Assembly (NCBI RefSeq): GCF_036010325.1
Contig: NZ_CP108549.1
Span: 2,046,001 to 2,110,000 of the forward strand
DNA: 64,000 nucleotides
Direction of reading: 5' to 3'
From: Streptomyces sp. NBC_01210
GTDB taxonomy: Bacteria; Actinomycetota; Actinomycetes; Streptomycetales; Streptomycetaceae
The notes beneath the pieces were generated by a model. That model had not been told where the DNA came from and did not search any database. It saw only the letters and a list, made by a program, of their open reading frames with translations. This document shows, one piece after another, positions 11,597 to 23,937 of the stretch (position 1 is its first letter; each line of letters begins with the position of its first letter). The position numbers and the translations under genes are program-made.

Positions 11597-11770
11597 CACG
11601 GCCCCCTGGGGTGCGATGTGGACGCGCGTGCACGTACCTCTTCGACGGTAGACCTCAAATGACGTCAAAGGGAGTCCCCGTATACCCGCTGATGGGTAAT
11701 CATCGAATCGGTGGGGAATGCCAGGCTCACCATGCCTGCACAGAGCACTTACGACGAAGGGGGCGCGGGA

Positions 11771-12637
11771 GTGCGACGTCGGATGCGCGTGACGGACGGG
11801 CGGCATCTGATGGTGGAACGGCTGGGGGATCCGCGCGGCAGACCGGTCTTCCTGCTGCACGGCACACCCGGCAGCCGGCTGGGCCCGGCCCCACGCGGCA
11901 TGGTGCTGTACCAGCGCGGTACACAGCTGATCGCGTACGACCGCCCCGGCTACGGCGGTTCCGACCGGCTGGCGGGCCGCAGCGTCGCCGATGTCGCCCA
12001 GGACGTACGGGCGATCGCCGACGAGCTCGGCCTGGAGCGGTTCGCCGTGGTGGGCCGCTCGGGCGGCGCACCACACGCGCTGGCCTGCGCGGCCCTGATG
12101 CCGGAGCGGGTCACCCGCACCGCCGCTCTGGTGACGCTCGCGCCCAGGGACGCCGACGGACTCGACTGGTTCGAGGGCATGGCCGCGTCCAATGTCCTGG
12201 AGTACACCAGCGCGTCGGACGACCCGGCAGGGATGACCGAGCGGTTCATCCTGCGCTCCGCCGAGATCAGGCAGGACCCGATCCGGCTGCTCGACGATCT
12301 GCGCAGGGAACTGACCGAGTCCGACCGGATGGTGGTGTCGGACGCAGGCGTCAGGTCCATGCTGCTCCGCAACTACCAGGAGGCGCTGCGCACTTCCGCG
12401 TACGGCTGGGTCGACGACGCGCTCGCCTTCTGCAGCCCCTGGGGCTTCGACCCCGCCGACATCAAGGGCCCGGTGATGCTCTGGCACGGGGAGAAGGACG
12501 TCTTCTCGCCCGTGGGGCACTCCCGCTGGCTCGCGGAGCGCATCCCGGGCGCGACGGCCGTCCTCGAACCGACCGCCGCGCACTTCGACGCCCTGCACGC
12601 ACTGCCCCGGATCCTCACCTGGCTGCTGGACCACTGA
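11771..12637 (+). CDS. Alpha/beta-fold hydrolase
   Basis: 288 residues from GTG 11771, chosen for AAGGGGG seven bases upstream. The frame is also open from GTG 11711 and ATG 11732, neither with a good ribosome-binding site. Motifs are the oxyanion-hole HGTPGSR, the nucleophile elbow VVGRSGGAPH (Ser), the acid in WHGEKDVFSP and the His in TAAHFDAL, so the triad is complete. The cap region between the nucleophile and the acid is helical. The fold covers esterases, epoxide hydrolases and haloalkane dehalogenases, and the substrate cannot be told from sequence. It is a single gene, convergent with fxsT and separated from it by a hairpin. Confidence 0.9.
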   Translation: MRRRMRVTDGRHLMVERLGDPRGRPVFLLHGTPGSRLGPAPRGMVLYQRGTQLIAYDRPGYGGSDRLAGRSVADVAQDVRAIADELGLERFAVVGRSGGAPHALACAALMPERVTRTAALVTLAPRDADGLDWFEGMAASNVLEYTSASDDPAGMTERFILRSAEIRQDPIRLLDDLRRELTESDRMVVSDAGVRSMLLRNYQEALRTSAYGWVDDALAFCSPWGFDPADIKGPVMLWHGEKDVFSPVGHSRWLAERIPGATAVLEPTAAHFDALHALPRILTWLLDH

Positions 12638-12715: not shown

Positions 12716-15700
12716 TCAGACCGCCAGCGGCTCCAGATCGCGGTGCACCCTGCGCTCGTCGCGTGCGATCCGGGTCAGCGCATGCTCCTCGCCGAGCAGC
12801 CGCTGCAGCTCCTCCACGGTCTCCGCCCGCAGATGCGCCGCCTCGGCCTTGCGGCCCAGCAGGCCGAGTGTGACGGACATGTTGGAGGCGATACCGAGCA
12901 CCTCGGGATGGTGCGCGCCCAGCACCTCGCGCAGCCTGGTCACGGTCCGCTGCTCGATCTCCAGCGCCTCCTCCAGACCGCCCAGGTCGGCGAGGGCGTT
13001 GGCGAGGTTGATGGTGCTGTACAGCGCATGCGGATGGGATTCCCCGAGGACCTCCCGCATCGTCCTGGACACCTTCAGCAGCAGTTGTTCCGCGGCTTCC
13101 GGAGCGCCGCAGCCCCAGTGGAAGATGCCGAGGTTGTTGAGGGCGGCGAGAGTGTACGGATGCCGCTCCCCCGGCACCTTCATGTACTGGTCGACGATCT
13201 CCTGCGCCAGATCCCTGGCCGCCACCGGCTCCCCGGCCGCGAACAGGTCGGCCGCCAGATTCAGATCGCAGGCGAGCGAATCCGGGTTGGCCGAGGTGTA
13301 CTTGGCGCGGTAGCGGTTGCGGGTGGCCGTGGTCAGCCGCCGCGCGTCCTCGAGACGGCCGGCCCTGCGCAGCGACACGGCGAGGCTCTTGCCCGCCGCC
13401 AGTGTGCCCGGGAAGGTCCGGCCGAGCTGCTCCTTGTAGATGTCGTACGTACGCACGAGCACCGAGACCGAGTCCTCGTACCGTCCGACCTCCCGCAGGT
13501 CCCTGGCGAGGCTGACGGCGGAGGAGAGGGTGTACGGATGCTCCGGGCCGAGCACCTCGGTACGCCGGTCGAAGACCTCCTGGTCGATCTCGCGCGCCCT
13601 GGCGTACTGGCCGACCATGCGCAGATTCAGCGCCAGGTTGTTGGCGGCCGCGAGCGTACGCGGATGGGACTCGTGGAAGATCTGGCTGAATCCCTCGTGC
13701 GCCTCGGTCGCCAGCTCCATCGCCCTGCCGTACTGGCCGAGGGTGCCCAGGTCCATCGCCAGCCCGCTGGTGGTCATGTACGTATGCGGATGGGACAGGC
13801 CCAGCACCTCCTGCTGGCGCTCCAGGGTCACCTCGTCCAGCTCCTTGGCCTCCACATAACGGCCTTGCGAGCGAAGGATGTTGGAGAGATGGAAGCGCAG
13901 GTAGAGATACTGCAGATCGTCGTTGCCCAGCATCTCCTTCCAGGTGTCGCGCAGTTCGCCGGCAAGCGTGTAGGCGGCGTTCCAGTCGCCGCGCTTCCAC
14001 AGATAGCGCACACGGTCGATCATCAGCCGACGGGTCTCAGGCTCCTTGCAGAACCGCGCCTCCGAGGTGCCGAGGTGCGGCCAGATGGTGGCGAACCTCG
14101 GCCAGGTCTCGGGGTTGTCGATCGGCTCGTCGTCGTCGGGCCGCGCGCCCGCGAGGATGCGGTGGACCGCGTGCCGCGCGTCCTGCTGCTCCTGTTCGGT
14201 CAGCTGAGCCCTGATGACCGCCTGCACCAGCCGGTGCACCTGGATGCTGTTGGAGACCTGGTCGACCTTGGCCAGGGCGAACCGGCCGATCTCCCGGATG
14301 ACCCGCCCGAGCACCAGCTTCTCCTGGAGCGAGGCGTCGTACGGCTTGAGCGCGTCGATCATCTCCTTGCTGTAGAGGAGGTTCGCGGAGATCGGCTCGG
14401 GTGCGAAGAACGCACAGAGCTGGAGGAGACGCACCGCGGCGGGCGAGCGCTCCTTGAGCCGCTCGATGGAGACGTTCCAGGTCGCGGCGACCGGCTCGGG
14501 ATATCCGGCGGGCTGGTTGAGCGCGAGGACGCTCGCGGCCTGTTCCTTCAGCTGCTCGAGATACGAGGCGACGGGTGTGGCAGTCTCCGCGATCCACGCC
14601 GCGGCCTGCTCGACGGCGAGCGGCAGGTCGCCGACGGCGGTGGCGACCTGGTCGGCGTCCTCGATGGTCAGTCCGCGGGCACGCCGCCTGAGGTGTTCGA
14701 TGGACTCCTCGCGCAGGAACACATCGACGGGCAGCGCGTCCCCGTACTGCGACCAGGCCTGATTCCTCGAGGTGACCAGGATGTGCCCGGGCCCCTGCGG
14801 CGGGAAGAACCGCTTGAGCTGCTCGGGGTCGTCGGCGTTGTCGAAGACCAGCAGCCAGCGCGAGGACGGCACTCCGTTCCGCAGCAGTTCGATGGCCTCC
14901 TCCGAGGCGGCCGCCATGTCCTCGCCACCCTGGGCGCCGAGCCGGACGGCGAGTTCGGCGAGTCCGGCGACCACGTCGTCGGGCTGCTCGGAGGAGATCC
15001 ACCACACCAGGTCGTAGTCGGCCATGAAGCGGTGGACGTACTCCAGCGCCACCTGGGTCTTGCCGACGCCGCCGAGCCCGTAGAGGGTCTGCGGCTGGGG
15101 CAGCACCGCGGCCACGGCCATGCCGCCGCCGAGCTGGTCGCGCATCCGCTCCAGCACCACCGAGCGTCCGGTGAAGCCGGGGTTGCGGGGCGGCGCGTTC
15201 CAGATCTTCGGCACGGTGCCGGGGAAGCGCGGTCCGGGCGACGCGCTGTCGGGAAGCTGCACCGGCCGGTCCAGTGCGCGCAGCAGCGCGGTGGTGGCGG
15301 CCACCTCGTCCAGGCGGAAGAGGTCCACCGGGTTGCGGTCGATGTACGGGGTGGTGAGCCGGACGTCGCCGACTCTGATCGGCAGCAGATGCCGTCGGCC
15401 GCCGCTCGGGTCCTCGGCCGCGGCCCGCGACCAGACCTCCACCGCCCGGGCGGACTTGAGATACGCGCTGGACAGCAGCACGACCGTGCGTGCGGCGTTC
15501 TCGGCGGCGAGTGCGTCCGCGTCGGCCGGTTCCTGTTCGACGGAGACATCGCGTGGCACGACCCGGAAGCCGGCCCGGGTGAGCATGTACTCGACCCAGT
15601 CGGCCCACATGCGGTTCTCCGCCACATAGCTGAGGAAGAGGTCGGCGGGCAGGGCGGGACGGCGGCGGGTGAAGGCGTCCCTGATCCGGAGCCTGATCTC

Positions 15701-16657
15701 CTCGCCGACCTGCGGCATGGAGGTGATCCGCTGCTCGGTGATGACGGAGGTCAGCCGTTCGAAGGCGGAGAGCAGGGAGTTGGTCAGACCGGCTTCGTCG
15801 CCGAAGGTGGCGAGCGTCTCCTCGTAGGCGTAGTAGGGCCGGTACGGAATCTCCACCGCGCCCCAGTAGGCGGTCAGTTCGTCGCCGCTGAGCCCGGAGG
15901 GGAAGCGGTCGAACTTCAGCCTGGCCAGCGCGCGTCCGGCGTCCGCCTTCTCCTTCTCGCCCTCGTCGATCCGCATCGGCACCGGGAAGATCTTGATGCC
16001 GCGGCCGCCGTACCGCTCGTCGATCTGCCGGGCCACCGAGGCGGCGCCGTCGATGGACTGATCGCTGAGGGTGAAGCAGTCGACCAGGACGTCGGGCAGA
16101 TGGACGGTGCAGATGTCGGCGATATCGCTGAGGCCGGTACGGCTGTCGATGAGGACGTAGTCGTAGTTGGCCTTCATGTCCTCGCGCAGCGCGTCGAAGA
16201 AGTGGCCGCCGCCGAGCCGGTCGTAGAAGTTGTCCCAGTCGAAGGTGGAGACGGTCGCGGAGTACTCGCGGTTCTGCTTCCCGGCGGAGACGAAGTCGAG
16301 CGTGCCGCCGTCCGGGAACTCCCAGCCCAGGCTCTCGGGGGTGAGGGAGACGGCGTGCGGCTGTATGCGCGCGTAGTCGAGATGCCAGTCGTCGCGGCGC
16401 GGCTCGGGGCTGGTCGCGGCCCAGGCGTACTCGGTGATCAGATCGATGACTCCGGTGGTGGCGCCGAGCGTGGAGGGGTCGAGGAAGGGGTGGAAGAAGC
16501 GGTGCAGGCCGGGCGCTTCCAGGTCCCAGTCGACCGCCAGGACCCGCTTGCCGTTCGCGGCGAGAATCCAGGCGGTGTTGGCCAGGGCCATCGTGCGGCC
16601 CGTACCTCCCTTGTACGAATAGAAGGTGACGATGCGTCCGTCACGACTGCCTGTCAT
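12716..16657 (-). CDS. fxsT: FxSxx-COOH system tetratricopeptide protein FxsT (MinD-like / TIR / NB-ARC / TPR)
   Basis: 1313 residues. ATG 16657 follows GGAGG by six bases and overlaps the end of fxsC by 17 bases. Domains in order: a ParA/MinD-like ATPase with the deviant Walker motif YSYKGGTGRT (residues 13-22) and AVDWDLEAPGL; a TIR-like domain at about 340-480 beginning ADLFLSYVAENRMWADWVEY; an NB-ARC/STAND ATPase with LYGLGGVGKTQVALEY (about 527) and the Walker B RWLLVFDNADD (about 600); a winged-helix linker; then TPR repeats (about 850-1313) with repeating H-P-x-T/A-L motifs. It is the named FxsT partner of the RiPP cluster. Its role is unknown, but the architecture is that of a signal-sensing switch protein. 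Confidence 0.9.
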   Translation of the reverse strand: MTGSRDGRIVTFYSYKGGTGRTMALANTAWILAANGKRVLAVDWDLEAPGLHRFFHPFLDPSTLGATTGVIDLITEYAWAATSPEPRRDDWHLDYARIQPHAVSLTPESLGWEFPDGGTLDFVSAGKQNREYSATVSTFDWDNFYDRLGGGHFFDALREDMKANYDYVLIDSRTGLSDIADICTVHLPDVLVDCFTLSDQSIDGAASVARQIDERYGGRGIKIFPVPMRIDEGEKEKADAGRALARLKFDRFPSGLSGDELTAYWGAVEIPYRPYYAYEETLATFGDEAGLTNSLLSAFERLTSVITEQRITSMPQVGEEIRLRIRDAFTRRRPALPADLFLSYVAENRMWADWVEYMLTRAGFRVVPRDVSVEQEPADADALAAENAARTVVLLSSAYLKSARAVEVWSRAAAEDPSGGRRHLLPIRVGDVRLTTPYIDRNPVDLFRLDEVAATTALLRALDRPVQLPDSASPGPRFPGTVPKIWNAPPRNPGFTGRSVVLERMRDQLGGGMAVAAVLPQPQTLYGLGGVGKTQVALEYVHRFMADYDLVWWISSEQPDDVVAGLAELAVRLGAQGGEDMAAASEEAIELLRNGVPSSRWLLVFDNADDPEQLKRFFPPQGPGHILVTSRNQAWSQYGDALPVDVFLREESIEHLRRRARGLTIEDADQVATAVGDLPLAVEQAAAWIAETATPVASYLEQLKEQAASVLALNQPAGYPEPVAATWNVSIERLKERSPAAVRLLQLCAFFAPEPISANLLYSKEMIDALKPYDASLQEKLVLGRVIREIGRFALAKVDQVSNSIQVHRLVQAVIRAQLTEQEQQDARHAVHRILAGARPDDDEPIDNPETWPRFATIWPHLGTSEARFCKEPETRRLMIDRVRYLWKRGDWNAAYTLAGELRDTWKEMLGNDDLQYLYLRFHLSNILRSQGRYVEAKELDEVTLERQQEVLGLSHPHTYMTTSGLAMDLGTLGQYGRAMELATEAHEGFSQIFHESHPRTLAAANNLALNLRMVGQYARAREIDQEVFDRRTEVLGPEHPYTLSSAVSLARDLREVGRYEDSVSVLVRTYDIYKEQLGRTFPGTLAAGKSLAVSLRRAGRLEDARRLTTATRNRYRAKYTSANPDSLACDLNLAADLFAAGEPVAARDLAQEIVDQYMKVPGERHPYTLAALNNLGIFHWGCGAPEAAEQLLLKVSRTMREVLGESHPHALYSTINLANALADLGGLEEALEIEQRTVTRLREVLGAHHPEVLGIASNMSVTLGLLGRKAEAAHLRAETVEELQRLLGEEHALTRIARDERRVHRDLEPLAV

Positions 16658-17975
16658 CCGTGTCCTCCGCATCAGGGGCGATGTCATGCATGTGCGGGAC
16701 GTAGTGGGTGGTGCCGTACTCGGCCATCGGGCCGCGCAGCCGGGGCCGTTCGCGCGCACCGGCGCCGGCCGGTGGCACCGGCGGGAAAACCTCGGCGTGC
16801 CGCAGATACTCCTGGGCGGCCGCCTCCACCACCTGGGGCAGGAGCTGGCCGAAGGCCTCCATGCTGAGCACGCCCTTGGCGGCCGCCCGGCAGGCGGTCC
16901 GGCCCTGGCGCATCTGGTGCGGCATGGTCCGTTCCAGCTTCTCGACCAGTTCGGCCTCCGATGTCCGGCTCTGCGGGTCGTCGCGGTTCCAGGGGACGAC
17001 GACGCTCACCCAGGGGCGCGGCTCCGCGTCGAAGGCGGCGAGCCGTTCGCGCCGTTCGTCGTCCTCCAGGGCCCAGCGGTCGACCAGAAGTATCTCGGGC
17101 CGGGTGGGTGGCTGGCTGATGTCGGGTGGCGTCTCGTGGTCGAAGGAGGAGACGGTCGCCTGGTAGTTGAGGGAGCGGACCAGGTCCTGGGCGATGTACG
17201 CCAACGGCCGTGCGGAGTCCGGGTGGTAGGGATTCCACTCCTGGGACTGCTTGCCGTAGTAGTCGGGGGCGCGTCCCTCGGGCAGATCGTGGCGGGTGGG
17301 CGCGGCAACGGTCACATGCATCGGGCGGGGGCCGCCGGTGGGCTTGCCGAAGGCGCTGGGCGCCTGCCGGTAGTCGACCGGGCTGCCGGAACCGACGCGC
17401 GTAGTGTCCGCCACGCTGACGATGCGTTTGGCGAGTTCATAGACGGCGGCCTCGTACTCCTCGGCGAATATCCGTAACTTGATCAGCCCGTAGAGCCCGT
17501 CGGTGACATACCGGTCACCGAAGGCGCGATGGTTGAACTGCAACCGCTCGGCGGGGCCCGGGAGTTGCTCCGGCGGCATCGGCACCCACAGCGCGGGCAC
17601 GATCGCCTCCGCCGGCCGGTTGCTCTTCGCATGGTGGTAGATGGCCCGCTGGGCGAAGGCGTACCACTCCTTGCCGCACATCTCGCTGGCGAAGTACCGC
17701 GGTGAGAAGAGCGGGACGAACACCCGGCAGGTGGCCAGCACTTCACCCAGCCGCTCCGACCAGCCCTCCCCCGAGCGTATTTCCCGGTCCATGAACCCGG
17801 CGGGCGCACCGGCCGGCAGATCGGTCATGGCCATCACATGGCCGCACAGATCACGGAAAAGCCGTTCGACCCACATATCGGGGTCCGGGCCGCCGGCCCC
17901 GTACCGCGGTGTGTGCGCATAGCTCAAGAAGAAGTACGGCCGGTGATCCGCCGCTCGTTGCGCTGAATCTGACAC
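16641..17975 (-). CDS. fxsC: TIR-like protein FxsC
   Basis: 444 residues from GTG 17975 (GGGGG just upstream; earlier in-frame codons read a Trp-rich, unlikely N-terminus). The N-terminal part is a TIR-like fold: RPYFFLSYAHTPRYG, a helix DMWVERLFRDLCGHV, GFMDREIRSGEGWSERLGEV and VFVPLFSPRYFASEMCGKEW. The catalytic Glu of NADase TIRs could correspond to this EMCGKEW helix, but I cannot assign it safely. The C-terminal half, from about residue 230, is a second domain with TRPEILLVDRWALEDD and VSVVVPWNRDDPQ that recalls effector-associated modules. FxsC is a constant member of FxSxx-COOH clusters, with unknown biochemical activity. Confidence 0.88.
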   Translation of the reverse strand: MSDSAQRAADHRPYFFLSYAHTPRYGAGGPDPDMWVERLFRDLCGHVMAMTDLPAGAPAGFMDREIRSGEGWSERLGEVLATCRVFVPLFSPRYFASEMCGKEWYAFAQRAIYHHAKSNRPAEAIVPALWVPMPPEQLPGPAERLQFNHRAFGDRYVTDGLYGLIKLRIFAEEYEAAVYELAKRIVSVADTTRVGSGSPVDYRQAPSAFGKPTGGPRPMHVTVAAPTRHDLPEGRAPDYYGKQSQEWNPYHPDSARPLAYIAQDLVRSLNYQATVSSFDHETPPDISQPPTRPEILLVDRWALEDDERRERLAAFDAEPRPWVSVVVPWNRDDPQSRTSEAELVEKLERTMPHQMRQGRTACRAAAKGVLSMEAFGQLLPQVVEAAAQEYLRHAEVFPPVPPAGAGARERPRLRGPMAEYGTTHYVPHMHDIAPDAEDTDDRQS

Positions 17976-18486
17976 ACGACCCCCGTCCTGTGTGAACGCC
18001 CACACCCAGACCCACAAGCGCCTAAGGCTGCGAGCGAATTAATCATTCCGGAGCCGGTCACTCTCCATCCCCCCGATGTTCGGTCAATCAACACCGCTTT
18101 TCGGTCATCCAGCTCTCCGCACGGCCCGACGCGTTCCTTGATCGGGAACAACCTTGCGAGCCTTCCTCCCAGTTGTCCCTTCTGCTCCCTTTTCCAGAAG
18201 AAGACGGCCTTGCACTCGGCCCATTGATTGTCCCCACCCGGTCGCTGCACCACACAACGGTAGGTGCGCGGGCATGCTCCGGTCCGGTATTCGGCGAGAT
18301 GGAATGCAGTGCGGCGGCGAAATCCACCCGGCCCCTCGGCGCTCCGCAGGGACTCGGCCAACCGGCCCATCCGACAGCCGTGGATCCGGCGGCGTCGATG
18401 ACCGGCAGGTCCGCCCGGAAGGCCGCCGCCTGCTCGGGTGTCATCACGGCACCGGGGTGACGGCCGGCCGGCGTGTCCGCCCGGGC
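17976..18486. other. 511-base gap inside the fxs cluster; promoter region of fxsC-fxsT with a coding-like scrap
   Basis: No convincing gene. On the minus strand, the first 25 or so codons after ATG 18444 (MTPEQAAAFRADLPVIDAAG) look coding by third-position GC. The reading frame then becomes Ser/Arg-rich with poor codon use to 18088, suggesting a short decayed reading frame just downstream of fxsB. The part nearest fxsC, around 18030-18130, is relatively AT-rich and probably carries its promoter. That would make fxsA-fxsB and fxsC-fxsT separate transcripts. Confidence 0.4.
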
Positions 18487-20694
18487 TCAGCCACAGTCCG
18501 ACTCTTTCCACAGCTCGTCCAGCAGGCGCCGGCCGCTGACGGTCAGTTCGGCCGCGCGCGCCAGGGTTTCCAGCGCGGGCCTGGCCTGCTCGGCTCCGGC
18601 CGGTTCGAAGGCCGCGAGGCCCACACGTTCGTACGCTCCGGCCAGCAGCTCGGAGAGGGGCATCGGGGTCTCCCGCCAGGGCGCCCGGTGGGTCCACCAG
18701 CCGTCCTGCGCGTAGAGATCGGTGACCTCGACCAGTGCCTGCAGTTTGGCCCGCCTGAAACCGCGCAGCAGCGCGGTTGCCAGCTCCTCGGGCGTGCCGG
18801 GCACCGCGATCCCGAGCGCTCCATAGCCGTGCCGGCGCACCGACGCCTCACCCGAGACCAGCGGTGTCAGGGTCGTCAGACAGTCGGCGGCCTCCGCGGC
18901 CTGTGCGGGTACGGTCTGCCGCAGCAGCTGCCAGGCCTCGGCCAGCCGCCTGCTCCAGCCGTCCGCTTCACGGGAGCCGAGCCGCTCCCGCACGGGTAAG
19001 CCGAAGCAGTCCCGGTACGGGTCGATGTCGTCGAGCCGCAGCGCGGGCACCCCGTCGCCGCCGAGCCTGCGCACGGGCCGCCAGTCGCCGCAGTCCTCAT
19101 CGGCACCTACGTGCCACGGCTCGCGGCCGTCCACGTGTATCAGGAACCCCTTCTCGGCCGCGCGCACCTCGGCCTCGCCGTGCTCCCCGAGGCCCGTCAG
19201 CCGCAGCTCGCCGAGTGTGGGGAGCCAGAGCCTGCCGTTCCGGTACGGCGCCCGGACGGGTACCTCGAGCCCGGCTCGTACGACCGCGGCGGCGAGGTAG
19301 GACGGCAGCCGGAGCGCGAGCCCGGCCGCCTCCGGCCGCTCCTCGCGCAGGGCGGCCAGAGTGTCCTGCAGCCAGGTGTAGGTGTAGGGATGGCCGAGCA
19401 CCACGTCGAGCGCGTCGGAGCGCCCCTCCAGGGCGGACGCCAACTCCCAGGCCTCGTCCCAGGCCTCGCCGCCCTGTCCGTCGAGCTCCAGGTGGACGTC
19501 GGCGAGCAGGGTGCGGGTCACGTCCTGGTGCTCGGCCATGAGTACGCCGGGGTCCGTGACCGCGGCGGACACGGTCGCGGCGGCGGTGCGCTGTTCGATA
19601 CCGCGGATCAGCGCCTCGAGATCGCCGCAGTACACGGAGGTGTTGTCGAAGTCGTTCCGCGAGCTGTAGCGGTGGGTGTAGAGCCCGCCGCCGCAGGACC
19701 GTACGACCGGGCACCGGTGGCAGGTCTCGCTCACTCCGGCGAGTCCCTGCTGGCGTGCTCTGATTCCGGGGTGGGCCGCGACCTCGTCGAAAGGGTGGGC
19801 ATACACATCGAATCCGGTGGCTGCGGCGCCCTCGTAGGCGCTCTTGAGGGAGTCGACCTGCTCCAGGCTGCCGTCGGTCTCGACGACGACGAGGTCGGTG
19901 GGCGCAAGGCCGAGGGATTCGGTGAGGCTGGGGCCGCCGTCGAGGGTGGAGAGCACCGATGCGAAGAGCCGTACCGGAATGCTGCGGCCCTGCTCGTCCC
20001 AGCGGTCGAAGACGGCCAGGAGCCAGTCGGCGTAGGCGGTGGCCGAGCCGTCCGGGCGGGCCGGCGGGGCGTCCCAGGTGGCGTGCGGCAGCAGAAAGTC
20101 GATACGCGGCGGTTCCAGCTCGGTGAGCGCGTCATACACCGCGATCGGATCGTTGGCCACGTCAATGGTGCAGAGGAGACCGAGATAGAGGTGGCGGTAG
20201 CGCTCCTGGCGGAGCAGGTCGACAGCTCTGAGGACCAGGGGATGGCTGGTGCGGCCGTCCGCGAAGCGGCGATGGCGGTCGTTCGCGCTCCGGTCGCCGT
20301 CGAGGGAGATCCCGACCTTGACGTCGTACTCGCTGAAGAGGTCGAGGTAGCGGGGGCTGAGCTGGAGGCCGTTCGTATGGATACGAAGATCGAGTTCGGC
20401 GATTCCGTCGAGGGCCTTGGTGAGCTCCTCGCAGATGTGTCGTAGCCGTGCGGGCCCTGCCAGAAGAGGCTCCCCTCCGTGCAGGATCACTGACACGGAG
20501 GGCAGGGCATGACTCTTGGCATGCTCGGCCAGTCGCAGAGCTGTCCAGGAAATCGCTTCGTCAGAGATTGCCTTCGGGCGAGTGCGCCAGCTCTGATCAG
20601 CGTGTTCGTAGATATAACAGTGGTCACATGCAAGATCACATCTGCTGTGGACCTTCAATACGATCTCGCGGAATGGGACCAGGGGTCCAGTCAT
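18487..20694 (-). CDS. fxsB: FxsB-type radical SAM/SPASM cyclophane-forming maturase with decayed HExxH-like C-terminal domain
   Basis: 735 residues. The radical SAM cluster motif is C19-x3-C23-x2-C26 (SRCDLACDHCYIYEH). A SPASM auxiliary-cluster region lies near residue 320 (CHRCPVVRSCGGGLYTH and FDNTSVYCGD). Enzymes of this family join an aromatic ring of the peptide to a nearby side chain to form three-residue cyclophanes. After about residue 380 a second domain follows that resembles the HExxH peptide beta-hydroxylase partner: DGWWTHRAPWRETPMPLSEL near 660-680 matches its usual APWR..PRPL segment. The position of the metal-binding HExxH reads RGFRR (about 641-645), so this half has lost its ligands. 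The start lies nine bases after the fxsA stop. Confidence 0.93.
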   Translation of the reverse strand: MTGPLVPFREIVLKVHSRCDLACDHCYIYEHADQSWRTRPKAISDEAISWTALRLAEHAKSHALPSVSVILHGGEPLLAGPARLRHICEELTKALDGIAELDLRIHTNGLQLSPRYLDLFSEYDVKVGISLDGDRSANDRHRRFADGRTSHPLVLRAVDLLRQERYRHLYLGLLCTIDVANDPIAVYDALTELEPPRIDFLLPHATWDAPPARPDGSATAYADWLLAVFDRWDEQGRSIPVRLFASVLSTLDGGPSLTESLGLAPTDLVVVETDGSLEQVDSLKSAYEGAAATGFDVYAHPFDEVAAHPGIRARQQGLAGVSETCHRCPVVRSCGGGLYTHRYSSRNDFDNTSVYCGDLEALIRGIEQRTAAATVSAAVTDPGVLMAEHQDVTRTLLADVHLELDGQGGEAWDEAWELASALEGRSDALDVVLGHPYTYTWLQDTLAALREERPEAAGLALRLPSYLAAAVVRAGLEVPVRAPYRNGRLWLPTLGELRLTGLGEHGEAEVRAAEKGFLIHVDGREPWHVGADEDCGDWRPVRRLGGDGVPALRLDDIDPYRDCFGLPVRERLGSREADGWSRRLAEAWQLLRQTVPAQAAEAADCLTTLTPLVSGEASVRRHGYGALGIAVPGTPEELATALLRGFRRAKLQALVEVTDLYAQDGWWTHRAPWRETPMPLSELLAGAYERVGLAAFEPAGAEQARPALETLARAAELTVSGRRLLDELWKESDCG

Positions 20695-20703
20695 TCCGCC
20701 AGT

Positions 20704-20868
20704 CTAGAGCGCCGAGTTGAACGTGGACGCACGCCGAGTGACGTCGACCGAGACGGGGAGCACCCGGGCAAGCTTCCTGGCGGCAACGGCGCCACGGAGA
20801 TCGATCTGAGCCAACGGGACGCGATTCTTCTTCGCAGCGGCGAAGGACGCTGAGGTCTGAAACTTCAT
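20704..20868 (-). CDS. fxsA: FxSxx-COOH cyclophane RiPP precursor FxsA
   Basis: 54 residues from ATG 20868, beginning MKFQTSASFAAAKKNRVPLA and ending RRASTFNSAL. The last five residues are F-N-S-A-L at the free carboxyl terminus, exactly the FxSxx-COOH signature that names the family; the preceding leader (AQIDLRGAVAARKLARVLPV) would be the recognition region. FxsB is expected to crosslink the Phe ring to the Ser. The frame stays open further upstream to 21012, but there the residues are Cys/Trp/Arg-rich and unlike leaders. A weak AAGGA lies 10 bases before the chosen start. It is the first gene of a fxsA-fxsB unit. Confidence 0.9.
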   Translation of the reverse strand: MKFQTSASFAAAKKNRVPLAQIDLRGAVAARKLARVLPVSVDVTRRASTFNSAL

Positions 20869-21082
20869 GAGGGGCCGTCCTTGATGTTGTGTCCAGCGTT
20901 GTGTCCAGCACAGATACCACGCACCGTTGCGATGCCGGCGGCACGACTTTACTCTCATGGCCACCCGCAGCAACTCAGCACATGGAGACGGAACAAAAGA
21001 GTTGTGGCGCATTCTCGCAGGACAGTACGGAACAAGCCATTCCGCCTAAAGAGTGAAGGCAAAACTGCAGACGGGAGTGCGC
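20869..21082. promoter_or_regulatory. Divergent control region between fxsA and the SLATT gene
   Basis: This 214-base spacer is less GC-rich than its surroundings and must contain the promoters of the fxsA-fxsB unit and of the SLATT gene. It holds the tandem GTTGTGTCCAGC repeat at 20886-20909. Confidence 0.5.
20886..20909. repeat. Tandem 12-bp repeat upstream of fxsA
   Basis: GTTGTGTCCAGC occurs twice without spacing. Read toward fxsA it is GCTGGACACAAC twice, ending 17 bases before the fxsA start codon. Its place, in the leader or promoter of fxsA, makes it a candidate operator. Confidence 0.75.
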
Positions 21083-22015
21083 GTGACCGAATTATCCGGC
21101 CCACTGCACAGCATGGTCTTTCGTAACACTGATCTGCCGGTTCTCTTCCATCGCACGGACAGCATCGCGATCTCGCACCAGCGCGAGGCCGTCGGCTCCA
21201 CCCGCTCCCAGCTGCTGCTCCTGGTCGTGGGCGCCGCCCTGGCCACGCTGCCGTCCTCACTGAGGCTCGGTGACACCTTCCAACTCGCGGGCGCACTCAG
21301 CACGTTGGCCTATGCCGGGGTGCTCGCGCTGGGCTATCGCACCTCCCGGCGCAGAGCAAAGTCGCACTGGCAACTCAACCGCTCCGCAGCGGAGTTCATC
21401 AAGTCGATGTGCTGGCGGTACGCCGTCCATGGAGCGCCCTTCGACTCCCACTCCACCGATGCGGACGAGCTGTTCGCCGTGCGCCTGGAGGAAGGGCTGC
21501 GGGAGCTGGCCAAAGTCGGCTGGCAGGACCCGCGCCACGGCGATGCCGAGGTGGCCGCCGCGGACCTGATCACCACACCCATGCGGCGGCTGCACGCGAA
21601 GACGTTCAGCATCCGCAAGGAGACCTATGTCAGGGACCGGCTGATCGAACAGCGCAACTGGTACCACCGGAGCACGGAGAACTCGCGCCGCGCCACCGCG
21701 CTCTGGTCCGCGTCGATCGGGCTGCTCACCCTGCTCGCACTCTTTTTCGCGCTGCTGAGGACCTTCTCGATCGCCGAATCCGTCGATGTGATGGGCCTGT
21801 TGTCGGCGGCGGCCGCCGCCTGTCTGGCCTGGAGCGAGATCCGGCGCCATCAACCCCTCATCGCCGCCCACTCGTTGGTCGAGGAGGACCTGGCGGCGAT
21901 GCATACGGCGATGGAGACCTCGGTCAGCGATGTGGAGTGGCCGTCGGCGGTCTACGAGACCGAGCGCATCGTCTCGCCCCAGCACACCGACTGGCTTGTG
22001 AGACACCGGAGTTGA
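21083..22015 (+). CDS. SLATT-domain (DUF4231) membrane protein
   Basis: 310 residues from GTG 21083, selected because GGGAG precedes it by five bases (GTG 21053 and 21077 are alternatives). Two pairs of hydrophobic helices are visible: SQLLLLVVGAALATLPSSL with TLAYAGVLALGY, and SIGLLTLLALFFALLRTF with VMGLLSAAAAACLAW. Charged helical segments lie between them (RDRLIEQRNWYHRSTENSRR). This two-helix-plus-cytosolic-helix plan is that of SLATT domains, proposed as membrane-damaging effectors in nucleotide-sensing conflict systems. It is followed seven bases later by a convergent SLOG-like gene and is divergent from the fxs RiPP cluster. No toxic activity has been shown for this protein. Confidence 0.8.
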   Translation: MTELSGPLHSMVFRNTDLPVLFHRTDSIAISHQREAVGSTRSQLLLLVVGAALATLPSSLRLGDTFQLAGALSTLAYAGVLALGYRTSRRRAKSHWQLNRSAAEFIKSMCWRYAVHGAPFDSHSTDADELFAVRLEEGLRELAKVGWQDPRHGDAEVAAADLITTPMRRLHAKTFSIRKETYVRDRLIEQRNWYHRSTENSRRATALWSASIGLLTLLALFFALLRTFSIAESVDVMGLLSAAAAACLAWSEIRRHQPLIAAHSLVEEDLAAMHTAMETSVSDVEWPSAVYETERIVSPQHTDWLVRHRS

Positions 22016-22022
22016 GGGATGG

Positions 22023-22502
22023 TCAGTAGCGCTCGACACCCTCGCGCCAGATGACCGTCACGGGCCTGCCGAGGTGTCGGGCGTAGCGGACGATGTCGCC
22101 CGTGCCGCCGAGACCGCGGGCCGGGCGGCCGTCCCAGACCGCCAGCAGGCGGTCGCAGTTGTCGGCGATATAGGCGCCGGCCGCGTAGTAGGCCTCGTCC
22201 GTGGAGTGCGGGAAGGACAGCTGGACCTCCCGGCTCGCCCTGCCCCTGAGGTCCCGGTACCTGGCGAGTTCGTCCGGGGCCGTGAAACCGGCTTCGTAGT
22301 CGCCACTGGGGATCACCACGGTCAGTTCCGCGCCGTATTCCAGAGCGATGTCCGCGAAGAGCTGGTCAGCGCCCGCCGCGAGACTGGAGAGTGCTTCCAT
22401 TGAGCCCTCGTGGCCGCAGAACTCGGCGCGCATCCCGGCGCGGATATGGGCGTGCGCCTCGGGCGGGATGCCTCTGTGGCCGGTCACTCCAATGCGTTTC
22501 AC
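22023..22502 (-). CDS. SLOG-like (Rossmannoid nucleotide/ADPR-sensor) protein
   Basis: 159 residues beginning MKRIGVTGHRGIPPEAHAHI, with LSSLAAGADQLFADIALEYG, LTVVIPSGDYEAGF and ADNCDRLLAVWDGRPARG. The order, a strand followed by GxxGHR, a Gly/Ala-rich loop with Asp, a strand ending in VIPS, and a late strand LLAVWDG followed by Gly-rich loop, is that of the SLOG/YpsA/LOG-like superfamily. This superfamily binds nucleotide-derived ligands and includes sensors paired with SLATT effectors. It converges tail-to-tail with the SLATT gene (stops seven bases apart). A stand-alone housekeeping role is the alternative. Confidence 0.72.
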   Translation of the reverse strand: MKRIGVTGHRGIPPEAHAHIRAGMRAEFCGHEGSMEALSSLAAGADQLFADIALEYGAELTVVIPSGDYEAGFTAPDELARYRDLRGRASREVQLSFPHSTDEAYYAAGAYIADNCDRLLAVWDGRPARGLGGTGDIVRYARHLGRPVTVIWREGVERY

Positions 22503-22631: not shown

Positions 22632-23531
22632 TCAGTAGACGCTGACTCCGTAGGCGCTCAGCGCCTCGGTGACCGGCTGGAAGAATGTCGTACCGCCGGA
22701 GGTGCAGTTGCCGCTGCCGCCGGAGGTCAGGCCGATGGCCCGGCTGCCGGAGTAGAGCGAGCCGCCGCTGTCGCCGGGTTCGGCGCAGACGTTGGTGCGG
22801 ATCATGCCGTAGACGATGTCACCGCCGCCGTAGTTGACCGTGGCGTTGAGGCCGGTGACGCTGCCGCAGTGGATGCCCGTGGTGGAGCCGCGGCGACAGA
22901 CGGACATGCCGACGGTGGCGTTGGCCGCGCTGGTGATGTCCTGGCTGCCGACGGTGCCCGGGTGGGCGATCGAGGTGTTGGAGTACCTCACGATGCCGTA
23001 GTCGTTGCCCGGGAAGCTGGATCCGGCCGTGGGACCGATGCTCGTGGAGTGCGAGGAGTTGGTGTACCAGGGCGGGTTGCCGTCGGTGCAGTGGCCTGCG
23101 GTCAGGAAGTAGTAGGTGCTGCCGCTGCGGACGTTGAAGCCGAGCGAGCAGCGCCAGCTGGTGGCGTAGATGGCGTCGCCGCCGGAGATGAGCTTGGAGA
23201 ACGTGCCGGCGGTGCGCTCGATGCGTATCGCGCCTGCGTTGGCCCCGGCTTCCTGCTTGATCTTTGTTATTTCGGCCTTCGAGACGGTGCTGTCGGCCGT
23301 GACGACCAGGGTGTTGGTCGCCTTGTCGATGAGCCAGGCGGTGCCTGCCACATCCGCGTCGAGTACGGCGTCGCTCGCGGCGGTGAGCTGGTTGGCGCTG
23401 AAGGTCTGTGCAGGGTTGGCGCTGGCGGCGGGGACAGCCAGCGCTGCGGCGGCGATCAGGCCAGTGGTGACGGCGAGCAGACGCATGCGTCTCGCCGTGC
23501 CACTGCGGGGGATGGTGCGCTTGATCCTCAC
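22632..23531 (-). CDS. sprB: Streptogrisin B-type secreted serine protease precursor
   Basis: 299 residues from GTG 23531 (GGGAGGA upstream), the same length as the classical streptogrisin B precursor. It starts [20 protein letters not shown], with a signal peptide ending ASA and a short propeptide ([38 protein letters not shown]). The mature enzyme starts about [20 protein letters not shown]. The triad is His in LTAGHCT, Asp in NDYGIVRYS and Ser in PGDSGGS. The end [12 protein letters not shown] agrees with streptogrisin B as I remember it. It is secreted and self-processed, with chymotrypsin-like specificity for large hydrophobic residues. It has its own terminator. Confidence 0.92.
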
Positions 23532-23716
23532 TTGTCGTTCCTCCCGAGGGGAATCGGGGGCCCTTTGTGGGGTTCCGGGCCCGTGAGGCGCAGCCAGGGA
23601 GCACGTTCGCTTTTCGGACAGACTGTGCTCCTGACAAGCGCTGTTCGGGAGTATTCGGTGCGTCAACTTCCCGCGCAAGGGCGCCTTTCGGCCTCTCCGC
23701 TCCCCCATGCCGGACG

Positions 23717-23744
23717 GCCCCGGTGGCTCGTTGGCCACCGGGGC
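23717..23744. terminator. Hairpin downstream of the DUF1684 gene
   Basis: GCCCCGGTGGC pairs with GCCACCGGGGC over a six-base loop. It lies after the end of the long minus-strand transport/oxidation operon and probably terminates it. Confidence 0.7.
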
Positions 23745-23937
23745 TGTGCCGTACATGTCCGACCCGTAGGACGGGTCAGTGACTCCGAAGGTTCCGTTCG
23801 CCCGCCGGGACGGCGGTATCGAGGGTGTTCCCGGGGGGCGGGAAGGGGCAGATGAAGTGGTCCGCGAAGGCACACGGCGGCAGCAGGGACCGGTTGAAGT
23901 CGACGGTCACCGTGCCGTGGGCGGCCGGCGCGGAGGG

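Follow-up and report, generated by a model that had tools for sequence, protein, structure and literature searches.

An FxSxx-COOH peptide and a fused FxsB enzyme with an inactivated hydroxylase domain in a conserved SLATT and SLOG-like gene island of Streptomyces

Introduction

The accessible text on MscB, an enzyme given as IPR026335, describes the joining of Phe C4 to Ser Cβ in a peptide substrate (PMC11002830), and since this bond chemistry has already been reported, it is not the bond that calls for explanation. An rSAM-fused HExxH protein once annotated as a metallopeptidase is presented, in the available part of its report, as an αKG-dependent hydroxylase acting on a preinstalled cyclophane, and HExxH enzymes of the same type can also cleave the backbone (PMC12636437). 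This result revises the peptidase reading of Kaur et al. 2020 (PMC7159879), which, in its accessible sections, predicts that FxSxx peptides serve as toxins or signals of conflict systems whose effectors are AP-ATPases. The SLATT proteins have likewise been the subject of a published prediction, found in the open part of PMC9503650, as membrane effectors regulated by ADPr derivatives. For the FxSxx class as a whole, the chemistry has been reported but we found no demonstrated role, in agreement with a preliminary description of the locus treated here; no paper describing a mature product of this type, or its role, was found in the accessible literature.

The window analysed in this study is a 64,000-nucleotide stretch of the genome of Streptomyces sp. 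NBC_01210. Within it, the preliminary description recognised an FxSxx precursor gene and took it to complete a cyclophane cluster. We confirm the observation, and the interpretation is partly supported. Our comparison of related loci indicates that the cluster belongs to a larger conserved island, which includes genes for a SLATT membrane protein, a SLOG-like protein and an alpha/beta-hydrolase (Table 1).

Results

Loci encoding FxsBH, the fused form of FxsB, were drawn from a genus sample (42 of 150 genomes scoring above the cut-off), a class sample (10 of 394 genomes, all of the same genus) and a set of named genomes (the best 80 loci of a longer list). They comprised 128 loci with a close FxsBH, which were reduced to 118 distinct in residues 61-700, and then to 107 flanked by no less than 6 kb on the upstream side and 7.5 kb on the downstream side.

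Table 1. Features of the island, with positions counted from the first nucleotide of the window.
Feature	Positions	Strand	Basis and remarks
alpha/beta-hydrolase (Abhydrolase_1, weak S33-like)	11711..12637	+	convergent with fxsT; 105/107 loci
fxsT, KGGVGR-type ATPase, TIR, NB-ARC, TPR	12716..16759	-	NF040586 1047 bits, NF047398 148 bits; TIR_2, NB-ARC, TPR_10/12; true start may be downstream
fxsC, TIR-like and FxsC C-terminal domain	16641..18017	-	NF040588 235 bits, TIGR04276 227 bits, TIR_2 E 1.5e-8; true start may be downstream
Decayed AAC(3)-family (PF02522-type) acetyltransferase remnant	18091..18444	-	tblastn; between fxsB and fxsC
fxsBH, radical SAM/SPASM cyclophane synthase (residues 8-367) and inactivated aKG-HExxH domain (375-731)	18487..20694	-	TIGR04269, NF040587
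RGFRR at HExxH position, FxsB residues 644-648	18751..18765	-	alignment of 165 H-type domains
fxsA, 54-aa precursor ending FNSAL	20704..20868	-	translation; TIGR04268 34.1 bits; ATG 20868-20866
C-terminal F-x-S-x-x tail (F at -5, S at -3)	20707..20721	-	translation; leader-only held-out test
SLATT_3-SLATT_1 membrane protein	21053..22015	+	divergent from fxsA; PF18184 122.8 bits, PF18181 127.9 bits; 101/107 loci
SLOG-like 159-aa protein	22023..22502	-	convergent with SLATT; profile comparison; 100/107 loci

The precursor and its tail

The fxsA gene encodes 54 residues followed by a stop, with a translated C-terminus of RRASTFNSAL. The coordinates, codon count and FNSAL end of the preliminary description are correct on translation; its minus strand had gone unstated, and the + strand frame across 20704-20868 encodes a different product, not FxsA. 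The protein matches the NCBIfam model TIGR04268 (FxSxx-COOH) at 34.1 bits against a curated cut-off of 28 (E 2.3e-8). As previously reported, nine bases separate the fxsA stop, which ends at 20704, from the fxsB ATG, which starts at 20694. No sigma-70-type promoter or terminator was found in 20650-21150.

A motif search beside fxsB recovered FxsA in 115 of the 118 distinct loci, with N or S prevailing at the free tail position -4 of these 115, A or S at -2 and L at -1. Because such a search presupposes the motif, a leader-only model was trained instead on 58 loci, with the last 8 residues cut off, and tested on the other 60. The leader was matched in 60/60 held-out loci and the best match ended in F-x-S-x-x in 58 of them, which shows conservation and not 60 independent events, since training and held-out loci are related. 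Together with the TIGR04268 match, this result bears out the exact F-x-S-x-x signature claimed earlier, and on the same two grounds we rejected the possibility that fxsA is a chance ORF. The two exceptions are weaker matches, L077 (7.5 bits) ending F-D-A-A-I and L079 (18.0 bits) ending F-D-A-A-L. Both have Ala for Ser at -3, yet fxsB, fxsC, fxsT and SLATT are kept, and their tails offer a natural test of what the crosslink partner has to be.

The same genome carries a second fxs-type cluster (L043, 8.826-8.832 Mb) with a separate intact HEFQH protein, an unfused FxsB and a convergent FxsT; no ORF of at least 30 aa ending in FxSxx was seen near it.

A predicted cyclophane synthase fused to an inactivated hydroxylase domain

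FxsB matches TIGR04269 at 588.5 bits, against a cut-off of 370, and carries the radical SAM motif CxxxCxxC as CDLACDHC at residues 19-26. By sequence, the nearest PDB relative of its rSAM/SPASM part is ChlB (9gm3, 256.5 bits). We take IPR026335 to denote the FxsB family. Homology to MscB, as described in the accessible text of PMC11002830, supports the Phe-Ser cyclophane proposed in the preliminary description, and the FxsA/FxsB pair, as judged from its family matches, is a further example of an already known kind of peptide and enzyme.

The earlier assignment of FxsB as a cyclophane enzyme stands on the family match; it made no mention of the fusion to an inactivated hydroxylase domain. The C-terminal part of the protein matches NF040587 at 451.2 bits, a model that NCBIfam names 'inactivated beta-hydroxylase extension form', and residues 411-697 match the PDB chain 22nu_A by sequence. 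An intact HExxH metal site is absent from the window FxsB, where H, E and H are all replaced (RGFRR), so that no beta-hydroxylation is expected and an active hydroxylase or peptidase at this locus was rejected. In the close clade (128 rows), H is never found at the first HExxH position, nor E at the second, and H occurs at the fifth only in L074; G is present at the second position in 110 and R at the fifth in 120. This loss of HExxH throughout a clade that keeps the domain points to re-use of the domain, and makes it a clean case of enzyme evolution. Of 19 fused relatives from other clades, 14 retain the motif unchanged, as do the separate H proteins examined, and the fused-and-dead H domain corresponds to two changes on the FxsB tree. 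An independent loss (SEFQR) was observed at L131:8112-10508, within an otherwise active fused clade.

The final residue of FxsA is Leu in 123 of 128 dead-hydroxylase loci and Ile or Val in 11 of 13 fused active ones. The tally was taken without removing redundant rows and is confounded by clade, so the trend is kept as a lead only, a hint at what the hydroxylase may target.

An island of seven genes

Among the 107 loci, the hydrolase was found in 105, FxsT in 102, SLATT and FxsC in 101 each, and SLOG in 100. All seven genes occur together in 98 of them; 75 share the gene order of the window, and 23 have a second order, best explained by an in-place inversion of the fxsABCT block between the hydrolase and SLATT. 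On the SLOG side, DUF1684 remains in both orders (55/78 and 14/23), as does an alpha-lytic-type protease gene (63/78 and 22/23), with a protease match on the opposite side as well in 47/78. At first, the second order seemed strong evidence for an independent translocation of SLATT-SLOG and the hydrolase, a reading that was set aside for the inversion. As the loci are related and the second order probably represents one inversion, much of the linkage within the genus may reflect vertical descent.

The incomplete loci among the 107 vary in what they retain. Only the hydrolase, fxsA and fxsBH are kept in L072, L220 and L222; FxsC, FxsT and the hydrolase are missing from L209 and L219; SLATT and SLOG are missing from L075, L205 and L212, L205 also being without FxsC; and in L077 SLOG is absent from the stretch examined. 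A conserved island with an inactivated H domain, SLATT, SLOG and a hydrolase is more than a four-gene cluster, and constitutes a new arrangement. The cluster had been called complete, which holds for the presence of fxsA, fxsB, fxsC and fxsT; the conserved hydrolase, SLATT and SLOG-like partners extend beyond it, and an AAC(3)-like gene has decayed.

This decayed gene is represented by tblastn pieces in different frames, with a best E of about 3e-21 (L144 query). The coordinate step from fxsC to fxsB is 470 (469 nt between), compared with a median of 861 in loci with the gene and about 110 where none was found. An AAC(3)-family match follows fxsB in 58 of the 107 loci, window included (57 of the other 106), and that of the window is the weakest by far, at 42.7 bits vs at least 355 in the others. 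The broken, weak match in the gap and the 57 relatives with the gene indicate that the window cluster has lost it. At L223:6884-9463, an aKG-HExxH hydroxylase domain and an AAC(3)-type acetyltransferase domain are encoded in a single 859-aa ORF, a fusion which suggests that the two act in one pathway. From this fusion and the position of the gene, the AAC(3)-like enzyme may tailor the peptide.

Partner proteins and their active sites

The fxsC and fxsT genes lie downstream of fxsB, as the preliminary description had it, and on the same strand, and their products are matched over curated cut-offs by NF040588, TIGR04276 and NF040586. The TIR glutamate of FxsC (E117) is present in 135 of 138 sequences and replaced by Q in 3. 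The Walker A Lys (K567) and Walker B Asp (D640) of the FxsT NB-ARC domain occur in 152/152, and Ser117, Asp263 and His291 of the hydrolase in 138/138 each. We take these residues to be the catalytic letters of their families. No conserved glutamate was found at the corresponding site of the FxsT TIR, which weakens FxsT as a candidate NADase. The FxsT TPRs match those of kinesin light chain among PDB sequences, repeats that bind peptides.

Both SLATT domains (PF18184 and PF18181) score over the Pfam cut-off, and the protein has three hydrophobic segments above the Kyte-Doolittle cut. The SLOG-like protein alone gave no direct NCBIfam or Pfam match, and neither it nor its profile matched a PDB sequence. 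A wider profile matched the YspA-type SLOG family over 122 columns at E 1.5e-4 with a modest probability of 51.5 (control E 0.34); an earlier profile gave no clear match to a single YspA-type sequence (probability 0.9). Among 44 relatives, weak Pfam matches (best E 0.015-0.092) were to Nuc_deoxyrib_tr in 6, DprA in 5 and YspA-type SLOG in 4, and eight unrelated Pfam families also matched 1 or 2 members each.

No recognised peptidase family was found among the seven genes, save possibly the alpha/beta-hydrolase with its weak S33-type match, and release of the FxsA tail is an assumption. In the window, the gene at 22632-23873 encodes an alpha-lytic protease prodomain (PF02983); under either gene order, most loci have such a gene on the SLOG side. 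A PADLOC scan of six proteins returned only a weak pVip match for FxsB and PDC-M28B matches for the FxsT ATPase part, with no whole-system call for these six.

Linkage beyond descent

In the genus sample (n=150), a SLOG orthologue, defined by 140 bits or more, was present in 40 of 42 FxsBH genomes vs 2 of the 108 others. One of these two (G007, L085) has SLOG-SLATT next to an unfused FxsB, FxsC, FxsT and an AAC(3)-like gene; in the other (G057, L084) the pair stands alone in the stretch examined. In the class sample (n=394), SLATT_3 was found in 21 genomes, FxsC in 36 and both in 13 (Fisher p 4e-10, uncorrected for kinship). The start-to-start distance between SLATT_3 and the nearest FxsC is 3.9-8.1 kb in every one of these 13. 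Ten of the 13 belong to the close clade. The rest are G440 (L118), from another family, with an active HEFQH and SLOG-SLATT co-directional upstream of fxsA; G332 (L225), with an FxsA ending FQSAI, an unfused FxsB and a separate H; and G340 (L223), where the H domain is fused to the AAC(3) domain.

FxsC occurs without a SLATT_3 match in 23 genomes of the class sample, and SLATT_3 without an FxsC match in 8 of 21; in one of these eight (G465, L231), SLATT adjoins a KGGVGR ATPase and an FxsC-N-like TIR protein. In the stretches examined, 18 of the 20 fused FxsBH rows from beyond the close clade lack SLATT, which among them occurs only in L118 and L221, and so do all nine rows covered of the 11 with a separate H protein. 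The SLATT state changes 8 times on an FxsB tree of 56 rows (a close-clade sample and other clades). On the SLOG tree, L118 groups with paralogues instead of the genus clade, although its branch is long. In the 11 loci checked (L086-L096), no SLATT match accompanied the SLOG paralogues of about 40% identity. Three families (f1, f17, f37) have the hydrolase after fxsT.

Discussion

The gene and family identities of the island are well supported, and from them we infer its function. The chances seem to us evenly balanced that the locus is an intracellular, immune-like conflict module of NLR-like type rather than an antibiotic cluster; that the island takes part in conflict or stress signalling in some form is slightly more probable, and that SLATT-SLOG is its output arm somewhat more so again.

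In the proposed mechanism, FxsA would be bound via its conserved leader and FxsBH would join the Phe(-5) ring to Ser(-3) Cβ, yielding a cyclophane two residues from the free C-terminus. That FxsBH forms this Phe-Ser cyclophane on FxsA is very probable, judging by homology. The former hydroxylase domain, without its metal site, would have been retained in a different function, of which substrate binding or scaffolding is the most likely. The capped C-terminus, fixed in position, may then be recognised within the cell, and the kinesin-light-chain-like TPRs of the NLR-type FxsT are its most plausible reader. Family predictions and gene linkage suggest that the FxsC TIR would make an NAD-derived messenger, which the SLOG-like protein would sense and to which the SLATT protein would respond by permeabilising the membrane. 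Cyclophane-capped FxsA could thus be the signal or safety catch of the system. A specific version, which we put forward as speculative and doubtful, gives a bacterial NLR a cyclised RiPP as its own inbuilt ligand or safety catch: the FxsT TPRs would read the Phe-Ser cyclophane at the free C-terminus of FxsA that stays uncleaved, and an attack on radical-SAM, Fe-S or SAM metabolism, or an intruder, would alter the amount of capped FxsA, fire FxsT and FxsC and open a SLOG-gated SLATT pore.

An ordinary secreted RiPP is the alternative that survives best, and we consider it rather unlikely. FxsA would be cyclised, its tail would be cut off and leave the cell to act as an antimicrobial or signal, and the remaining genes would be regulators, immunity genes or neighbours. 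No recognised transporter was found among the seven conserved genes, which were those scanned, and the TIR/NB-ARC/TPR and SLATT partners are atypical for export or immunity; to our knowledge, such proteins are not usual parts of either. FxsBH nevertheless belongs to a RiPP maturase family, the conserved hydrolase with its full triad could be a releasing peptidase, an alpha-lytic-type protease gene is often nearby, and the AAC(3)-like acetyltransferase, fused to an HExxH domain in L223, is a possible tailoring enzyme.

It is unlikely that modified FxsA serves instead as a cytoplasmic ligand for FxsT or FxsC in a regulatory or developmental switch of the filamentous life cycle, with no anti-phage role. 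The fixed C-terminus and the intracellular look of the partners would suit such a switch, as would the link that Kaur et al. draw, in the accessible part of their text, between related systems and CRP-like regulators (PMC7159879), but an accessory conflict module would better account for the patchy occurrence (42/150 genus genomes) and for SLATT-SLOG having been gained or lost repeatedly. Least probable, and improbable in our view, is that fxsABCT alone is the functional unit, with SLATT-SLOG and the hydrolase no more than conserved neighbours, as the movement of fxsABCT as a block between static neighbours and the 18 of 20 fused rows of other clades lacking SLATT in the stretch examined might suggest, since SLATT_3 lies near FxsC in 13/13 class genomes with both, in several architectures and two families, and the hydrolase follows fxsT in three.

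The conflict-module reading ties the FxSxx class, in several architectures, to a rare SLATT effector and SLOG-like sensor, a conserved hydrolase and often an acetyltransferase, and so provides a testable model. If it is true, a RiPP is part of an NLR-like immune circuit.

Thoeris-like signalling follows the logic of a TIR enzyme, a SLOG sensor and an effector. The island resembles it in this proposed logic and differs in using, as its sensor arm, an NLR-like protein linked to a RiPP, with SLOG and effector as separate small genes. With ChlBH, as described in the available part of PMC12636437, it shares the fusion of an rSAM domain to an HExxH-fold domain, ChlB being the best PDB match, whereas here HExxH is lost (RGFRR). 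The peptide-processing conflict systems of Actinobacteria in Kaur et al. 2020 likewise combine an FxSxx peptide, rSAM-SPASM and an AP-ATPase with TPR, with a MinD/ParA-like domain in stand-alone versions; according to the accessible text, however, they have a zincin peptidase core, a domain that lacks its metal site here, and SLATT belongs to their GAP1 systems, not to FxSxx (PMC7159879). Beyond that source, no paper on a link of SLATT to FxSxx or cyclophanes was found in the openly accessible literature, as judged by title, and subscription papers may contain one. The closest likeness is to the FxSxx-COOH/FxsB triceptide systems (TIGR04268, TIGR04269; MscB), with which the locus shares the precursor tail, the rSAM/SPASM family and the FxsC and FxsT partners, and from which it is set apart by its fused, inactivated HExxH domain, its SLATT-SLOG and hydrolase partners and its decayed AAC(3)-like gene.
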